Origin: Lachnospiraceae bacterium
GTDB taxonomy: Bacteria; Bacillota; Clostridia; Lachnospirales; Lachnospiraceae
Direction of reading: 5' to 3'
DNA length: 61,098 bases
Assembly (NCBI GenBank): GCA_017557525.1
Contig: JAFYYN010000045.1
Coordinates: forward strand, 1-61,098
The notes below the pieces were generated by a model. That model saw only the letters and a list, made by a program, of their open reading frames with translations. It was not told the DNA's origin and ran no database searches. Made by a program: the position numbers and the translations under genes. This document shows, piece by piece, positions 9,942-10,722 of this stretch. Numbering within the stretch: position 1 is the first letter of the stretch; each line of letters opens with the position of its first letter.

Positions 9942-9970
9942 TTGACATTTTGATATTTGGGGTGTATAAT
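9942..9970 (+). promoter_or_regulatory. Perfect consensus sigma-A promoter of the repeat RNA
   Basis: TTGACA (9942-9947), spacer of exactly 17 bp, TATAAT (9965-9970). It diverges from the GH25 promoter about 105 bp away. No protein-coding frame follows before the terminator at 10551-10602. Confidence 0.9.
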
Positions 9971-10075
9971 TCAGACATAACAAAACAACAAAGCCAATAA
10001 ACAAATAATTTCTCTCCTTCTTAAGAAAATATTTGATGGTTTACCAATAACAATAACAACGAAATTTATGAAAGA

Positions 10076-10380
10076 GAGGTACGGTCCAATGAAAACCTAA
10101 GCCCAATTTCAAAGAAATACAAATTTAAAGAAACGAGGTACGGTCCAAAGGAAACAGTAGCTTAACTTCAAAAAAATATTAAAGAATTGGAGGTACGGTC
10201 CAAAGGAGACAGTAGCTTAAATCAAAACAAAATCTAAAAGAAACGAGGTATAGTCCAAAGGACACTTAAGACTTAATCCAAACAAAATATTAAAGAAACG
10301 AGGTACAGTCCAAAGGACACTTAAGACTTAATCCAAACAAAAATATTAAAGAAACGGGGTAAGGTCCAATGGGATCATAA
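10076..10380 (+). repeat. Six-copy tandem repeat, ~55-bp period, core GAGGTACGGTCCAAAGGA
   Basis: Cores begin at 10076, 10135, 10190, 10245, 10300 and 10356, giving steps of 59, 55, 55, 55 and 56. Each has GAGGT (GGGGT in copy 6), a variable TACGG/TATAG/TACAG/TAAGG, then TCCAA and AGGA or TGRR, and an A-rich linker ending in AAAGAA. Linkers are conserved too, especially between copies 4 and 5, so this is tandem duplication, not a CRISPR with unique spacers. Copies 1 and 6 have ATG where copies 2-5 have AAG. In that frame every copy meets TAA after 3-6 codons. Confidence 0.9.
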
Positions 10381-10550
10381 TTCAAAAATAATTTACCGGC
10401 ACGGGACGCCGGTCTGGACCGAATGATAACTTCTTTTATATTCGGGTTATACATTCACCAATACGCATTAGGCGTAATGAATATAGATTTTTACATAGAT
10501 ATTAACCATAGGAGGTTAAAAATAGAATAAAATGAGTTTTGAGACAGTAA

Positions 10551-10602
10551 AGTAGGGCATCGGATCTGAGTGGAATCTCTTATCCGGTGCCCTACTTTTT
10601 TG
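10551..10602 (+). terminator. Strong terminator of the repeat RNA
   Basis: Fifteen bases at 10551-10565 pair with 10582-10596 (AGTAGGGCATCGG against CCGGTGCCCTACT with one G-U), followed by TTTTTTG. Confidence 0.92.
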
Positions 10603-10693: not shown

Positions 10694-10722
10694 TTGACTT
10701 ATTAATAAACCTATTCTATAAT
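10694..10722 (+). promoter_or_regulatory. Near-consensus sigma-A promoter of a second small RNA
   Basis: TTGACT (10694-10699), 17-bp spacer, TATAAT (10717-10722). The start is expected near 10729, exactly where the pairing element CAACAAG begins. Confidence 0.8.

Follow-up and report, generated by a model that had tools for sequence, protein, structure and literature searches.

A stand-alone repeat RNA of Lachnospiraceae with Shine-Dalgarno-like cores and a possible role as decoy or reservoir for 30S ribosomal subunits

We tentatively interpret the element described here as a stand-alone regulatory RNA of Lachnospiraceae, in which over-strong Shine-Dalgarno (SD) cores without a productive open reading frame (ORF) would serve as a decoy or reservoir for 30S ribosomal subunits. 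It was recognised in a stretch of 61,098 nt from a Lachnospiraceae bacterium (the window), where positions 9942-10601 make up a complete transcription unit consisting of a promoter, an A-rich leader, six cores, three hairpins and a terminator. The transcript would start near 9977, both of its ends being predicted. The following features were distinguished:

9942..9970, + strand: sigma-70-type promoter TTGACA-17-TATAAT, 12/12 matches, kept in homologues L007-L015
10032..10053, + strand: leader TTTGATGGTTTACCAATAACAA with a small hairpin-like TGGTTTACCA, alike in most genus members, pairing judged by eye
10076..10100, + strand: repeat 1, core GAGGTACGGTCCA followed by the start-stop mini-ORF ATG AAA ACC TAA (10089-10100)
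10135..10148, + strand: repeat 2 core, without start codon (AAG)
10190..10203, + strand: repeat 3 core, without start codon (AAG)
10245..10258, + strand: repeat 4 core GAGGTATAGTCCAA, without start codon
10300..10313, + strand: repeat 5 core GAGGTACAGTCCAA, without start codon
10356..10380, + strand: repeat 6, core GGGGTAAGGTCCA followed by ATG GGA TCA TAA (10369-10380)
10395..10413, + strand: hairpin H1, loop letters CACGGGA invariant, compensatory changes at two pairs, each in 4 of 9 sequences
10419..10445, + strand: hairpin H2, compensatory changes at a single pair, in 2 of 9 sequences
10462..10476, + strand: hairpin H3, compensatory changes at 4 of 5 pairs
10510..10555, + strand: terminal SD AGGAGG (10510-10515) and micro-ORF ATG AGT TTT GAG ACA GTA AAG TAG (10532-10555)
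10549..10601, + strand: intrinsic terminator, 17-pair stem (10549-10565/10582-10598) beginning inside the micro-ORF, T run to 10601

The cores of the window are GAGGTACGGTCCAA-like and start at 10076, 10135, 10190, 10245, 10300 and 10356 (spacings 59, 55, 55, 55 and 56 nt), the sixth being GGGGTAAGGTCCAA. The initial annotation had proposed six repeats of about 55 nt in a stretch without a gene, framed by a perfect promoter and a 15-pair terminator and followed by three hairpins. All of this was borne out, with a terminator stem of 17 pairs: Tandem Repeats Finder reported 55 nt x 4.5 copies with a score of 301, the top of 34 rows in the window, the longest listed sense-strand ORF inside the unit has 35 aa, and the repeat spacings are not multiples of 3. 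Within its own genome, the strict core GAGGTANNGTCCAA is confined to this array, where five of the six copies match it. Ten promoter-like sites lie in 2 kb versus 5.9 expected from shuffling, so the promoter match by itself is weak proof; its retention in genus homologues gives support beyond the bare match. The unit is flanked on the left by a GH25 protein encoded on the opposite strand, and on the right by a skipping-rope RNA followed by hrcA, grpE and dnaK. The skipping-rope RNA (RF02924, 10740-10809), situated between the repeat RNA and hrcA, stands behind an 11/12 promoter at 10694, and the window also contains a Clostridiales-1 RNA (RF01699, 52138-52297).

The 3' domain shows signs of a maintained structure. 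Among nine genus members, compensatory changes were found at 7 of 33 predicted pairs of the hairpins and the terminator stem. The stem itself (window 10549-10598, L007-L014) is near-invariant across the genus alignment, beyond the apparent needs of a terminator. The minimum free energy (MFE) of the window unit has a z-score of -4.3 (20 shuffles), to which the terminator contributes a part. As for the linkers between cores, which had been thought probably unpaired, 242 ungapped units gave no convincing helix covariation, in keeping with that view, but the MFE fold of the window unit pairs some of them. A hairpin inside the repeat was rejected for the same want of convincing covariation. A long-range pairing between core GUCCA and terminal UGGAC was discarded as well, since by eye it does not track the A/T change at core position 9.

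Relatives carry the same discrete unit, with conserved cores and drifting linkers, as had been anticipated. BLAST with the window unit matched 29 of 99 genomes (its own included) at E<=0.01. In eight further genus members the alignment spans 370-670 nt of the query (best E 3e-175 to 3e-86), in a ninth (G014) 136 nt (E 5e-26); many of the remaining matches are weak. These homologues keep the promoter, cores, terminator and 3' hairpins, the hairpins being absent in G014. In nine of ten genus loci the first repeat has the pattern ATG AAA ACN TAR, and likewise in nine of ten the last has ATG GGA NCN stop. A GH25 homologue adjoins the long array in all ten genus genomes carrying it (window included), from which we conclude that these loci occupy orthologous positions; HrcA is encoded in the flanking DNA of three of them (G000, the genome of the window, G007 and G010). 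A search guided by GH25 and hrcA, as initially suggested, thus holds for the long arrays of the genus but not further: neither protein was found at E<=1e-3 near any other locus (273 loci, flanks within the retrieved DNA). Further genus loci (L016-L019, L021, L022) have cores 67-79 nt apart and no GH25 neighbour in the retrieved DNA.

Across the family, many loci being contigs of metagenome-assembled genomes (MAGs), a two-core pattern occurred in 23 of 397 genomes, and its reversed version in none. None of 247 genomes from the order's other families had the pattern (295 searched, 48 of them from the same family). Named carriers among the matches listed (80 of 119 stretches, some due to chance) are Anaerobutyricum hallii, Eubacterium ramulus, Roseburia inulinivorans, Coprococcus comes and Blautia species. 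A profile of the unit was built from 54 sequences chosen from 70 rows, terminal-type or odd rows being left out; from the source set of these rows, seven loci had been removed by name, three of them beyond the 13 discarded loci mentioned below. Among 296 Lachnospiraceae genomes it matched 242 at E<=0.5, a number that falls to 158 at 1e-2 and to 128 at 1e-3; these E-values are rough and were obtained with strict filters on, and 114 of the 242 genomes have E >1e-3. Single-hit loci that were inspected mostly displayed the same architecture with one core. In a further search across the order, 24 of 148 genomes gave a match at E<=0.01, and two of the 24 belong to other families. One of these two, G468, was seen by eye to have cores in tandem at a distance of 53 nt, with a short ORF at the end and a terminator. 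Another locus (L258), from a sister-family genome, has a T-box leader at 1240-1456, 3' of the repeat RNA. Matches at E<=1e-3 in 11 genomes, nine of them single-contig, amounted to one locus in ten genomes and two in one; G219 carries two arrays.

The absence of a known RNA family, claimed at the outset, was upheld: no Rfam 15 covariance model scored above its gathering score in the unit of the window, in 14 homologue loci or in 12 more loci, the last set giving matches only beside the unit (the T-box in L258, LSU rRNA and a tRNA in L238). The best weak match inside the unit had E 0.082 and 25.8 bits against a cut-off of 228.9. Searches of an open-access literature library showed no description of the repeat RNA.

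Several features went beyond the initial annotation, namely the terminal micro-ORF at the terminator, the phasing of starts and stops, the family-wide spread and the single-core versions. Redundant units and RNAs were removed at set thresholds. The consensus of 410 units is a purine-rich stretch, GAGGUAYRGWCCAM, purines and often UAA; part of the core was fixed by the search expression, so its conservation is partly by construction and inflated. Thirteen loci judged to be unrelated repeats or chance were left out of the unit counts, three of them (L081, L099, L113) with a good core. Of 131 units having both a promoter and a terminator, filters on length and redundancy retained 103 RNAs. These have a median length of 430 nt and 1 to 10 cores, counts that may include a terminal variant, and 20 of them have a single core. 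Their promoters match at least 11 of 12 positions in 74 of 103 cases, a quality that is partly selected because at least 9/12 matches were demanded for entry. The first core lies a median of 64 nt (range 9-287) from the inferred transcript start. With genes called by a simple ORF caller, 47 of 81 loci have a convergent next gene, 32 have one on the same strand and two have none, some rows of this set having a wrong terminator (e.g. the downstream one in the window row L001). Since the next gene is so often convergent, the unit looks stand-alone.

A few sequences came up beside the main family. The letters TGACGAGAAAGT, hairpin-like by eye, recur in single-core bodies (L226, L231, L237, L238, L263, L264), and GACGAGAAA is also present in terminator loops (L142, L232). 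In one Lachnospiraceae genome (L122/L055), a tandem repeat of 63 nt containing GAGGTACGTWYCAC was taken as unrelated, and so were, as a look-alike repeat, about 24-nt arrays of GAGGTACACACCAA (L068, L074, L080, L135; Tannerella MAG). In the 11-core array L092/L058, several cores read GCGGTA for GAGGTA, so that the SD is weakened and the spacer intact, which hints that the spacer matters independently.

The 30S reading draws on the cores themselves. At the start position, 243 units have ATG in 81, TTG or GTG in 10 and none of these in 152. The ATG-bearing units, some of which are terminal ORFs, have an in-frame stop as third or fourth codon in 60 of 81 cases, i.e. the layout of SD, AUG, one or two codons and stop; at the same offsets, the other two frames have 8 and 3 stops of 81, one frame being already stopped at the first codon in 25. 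A fourth-codon stop is also kept in 86 of the 152 start-less units. In silico, the 3' tail of 16S rRNA forms more stable duplexes with the cores than with ordinary gene starts. With a 16-nt tail taken from L268/L269, the mean duplex energy was -15.3 kcal/mol for units (n=242) and -15.6 for the start-less ones (n=152), versus -7.2 for shuffled units and -8.6 for gene starts (829 open frames >150 codons, best early ATG). Part of the gain comes from the order of spacer letters, GGUCC being able to pair with rRNA GGAUC: shuffling the spacer only gave -13.5, weaker in 20 of 20 replicates. With a longer 16S stretch, shuffling the spacer together with downstream letters changes little (-18.5 vs -18.1), and as the spacer effect nearly vanishes there, the case for an extended core-16S pairing is weak. 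Of the candidate partners initially listed, 16S rRNA has thus gained ground through the duplex energies, while a CsrA-like protein has lost it, as detailed below.

On these grounds, each core would pair with the 16S 3' tail, RNA GAAAG-n-GAGGU-AC-GGUCC facing rRNA GGAUC-ACCUC-CUUUC. A docked 30S subunit could then either not start, for lack of a start codon, or would start and stop within a few codons, so that one transcript might hold several subunits. It could act as a decoy that lowers initiation elsewhere, as a reservoir protecting the exposed 3' end of 16S rRNA in idle subunits, or as both. The terminal SD and micro-ORF would bring a ribosome to the RNA's 3' end and so link the fate of the RNA to ribosome supply. 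A more specific version, in which a strongly promoted array of start-less super-SDs clamps the 16S 3' tail of several 30S subunits for storage or as an initiation throttle and shields them from exonucleases acting at the 3' end, for instance RNase R, while the micro-ORF adjoining the terminator senses ribosome supply, is conceivable but doubtful.

We favour a 30S decoy or reservoir because of the 16S pairing, the start-less SD cores and two precedents. In vitro, SD oligonucleotides shield 30S against RNase R (PMC10901742), and STAB-SD, a 5' stabiliser of Bacillus thuringiensis cry3A mRNA, is a start-less SD reported to bind 30S and to block RNase J1 (PMC4113751). STAB-SD is situated near the 5' end; the likeness lies in an SD-like element without translation start and complementary to the 16S 3' end, and an SD of this kind was found in silico in 152 of 243 units. 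STAB-SD is described as a leader element of a protein-coding mRNA, whereas the repeat RNA is stand-alone, often tandem, and has a conserved extra element. Bacterial minigenes likewise combine a strong SD, AUG, one or two codons and a stop (PMC8708949); they are described as cis leader elements or toxic constructs, while those of the repeat RNA are serial and have start-less siblings.

Several observations count against a 30S decoy. Conservation of the spacer exceeds what ribosome docking requires: position W9 holds A in 36% of units and R7 in 54%, and these A residues do not pair with the 16S tail. The stop kept in start-less units would be superfluous. Within the genus of the window, C or T often precedes GAGG, which limits the SD to five contiguous pairs. 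The single core of 20 RNAs suits a stabiliser and is poor for a decoy. Finally, the conserved UAC and the choice between A and T at position 9 are left unexplained.

For this last reason a protein partner stays in play, as an unlikely but serious contender. An RNA-binding protein would read GGUACRGWCCA, which overlaps the SD, and the array would titrate it, like CsrB does CsrA and CrcZ does Hfq. The spacer, conserved beyond the needs of an SD, is atypical of ribosome-binding sites: with genes called by the same simple ORF caller, TAC follows GGAGG in 4 of 373 genes and the full core occurs in none, which makes the core unlike an ordinary ribosome-binding site. Tandem layout on open linkers and the variable number of cores per RNA also speak for titration; the single-core RNAs speak against it. 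CsrB/CsrC-type sponges likewise display SD-like sites in many repeats along a single untranslated RNA (PMC7652899), and the CsrA SELEX consensus RUACARGGAUGU shares GUACAR with the core. That consensus requires GGA, which is absent in repeat 1, and unlike CsrB/CsrC the repeat RNA shows no GGA in hairpin loops (242 units without convincing helix covariation; repeat 1 without GGA after the core). CsrA (PF02599) is present in 24 of 36 carriers, including the genome of the window, and missing from 12; among 25 carriers at least 90% complete it is missing from nine, including the single-contig G292 and G379. A CsrA sponge was therefore rejected as a general reading. CrcZ is similar in being a decoy RNA for Hfq, a binder of mRNA ribosome-binding regions (PMC4063720), and differs in its A-rich Hfq motifs, the repeat RNA having a fixed 14-nt core. 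Nor was a regulon seen among exact sites and profile matches: in a search of both strands of 36 genomes, 24 of 129 hand-sorted exact hits lay outside RNA loci versus 47 for the reversed control, and profile hits outside RNA loci in 11 genomes were few and mostly weak, so that single core sites showed no excess in either set.

The terminal ORF raises the improbable alternative of a micropeptide mRNA, whose product would be the ORF of 5-10 codons, with the cores as a ribosome-loading or stabilising leader. Most RNAs do end in an SD and such an ORF, its stop abutting the terminator stem. In 87 non-redundant RNAs, a cleaner set than the 81 loci used for next genes, a rule blind to stops found a start in 70 and none in 17, the latter speaking against this reading. 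The stop falls within -5..+4 nt of the stem in 67 of 70, compared with 1 and 3 in the other frames and with 36 of 171 for random body positions that obey the start rule. In the window the gap between terminal SD and AUG is 16 nt, above the usual length, which makes translation less certain there than in other lineages. Distinct micro-ORFs of 5-10 codons number 83 (45 starting with ATG, 34 with TTG, 4 with GTG). Evidence for selection on the peptide is mixed: MDSIV, MDEIV and MKLQEIH recur, and 143 of 276 differences in 121 pairs are at third positions, but among nearest neighbours only 38 of 92 are, differing codons being synonymous in 19 cases and not in 54, which makes peptide conservation weak, and peptides diverge widely between lineages.

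It is quite improbable that the RNA is a sponge or partner of a small RNA whose C-rich loop targets SD sequences. SD-like motifs repeated on open linkers would suit this, and wobble pairing would tolerate C/T at position 6 and A/G at position 7; however, a single partner base could not pair with both A and T at position 9, and neither the exact core nor its complement is in excess outside RNA loci in the 36 genomes searched. Possible likenesses of the core to the tip of SRP RNA, to the T-arm of tRNA and to a tyrosine codon opposite a tRNA anticodon loop were also weighed.

A cis-acting attenuator with a leader peptide is very improbable, and was rejected because of next-gene orientation. Its short ORF touching the terminator has the layout of many leader peptides, also seen in uORF candidates (PMC11109978), and the co-directional genes would suit it; against it stand the more frequent convergent genes and the lack of a constant downstream gene, and, in the window, a separate promoter and the skipping-rope RNA preceding hrcA. 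A decayed coding gene or selfish repeat, which the frequent nature of tandem repeats might suggest, is hardly credible, since core spacings fall into all classes modulo 3 (71, 62 and 54 of 187), promoter, cores, covarying hairpins and terminator are kept, ten of 11 genomes have a single locus, and neither BLAST nor a strict two-core pattern gave a match in plasmid, phage and viral-contig collections, for which reason mobile or viral origin was rejected too.

Our weighing of these readings rests on the family-wide data, not on the neighbourhood in the genus. To our knowledge, direct handling of 30S subunits in bacteria is a role of protein hibernation factors only. We found no described RNA that matches the architecture of the repeat RNA. 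If the interpretation as 30S decoy or reservoir is true, this would be a bacterial RNA that handles 30S subunits directly through base pairing. Mechanism aside, an RNA for which no Rfam match was found is widespread in a dominant family of gut bacteria.
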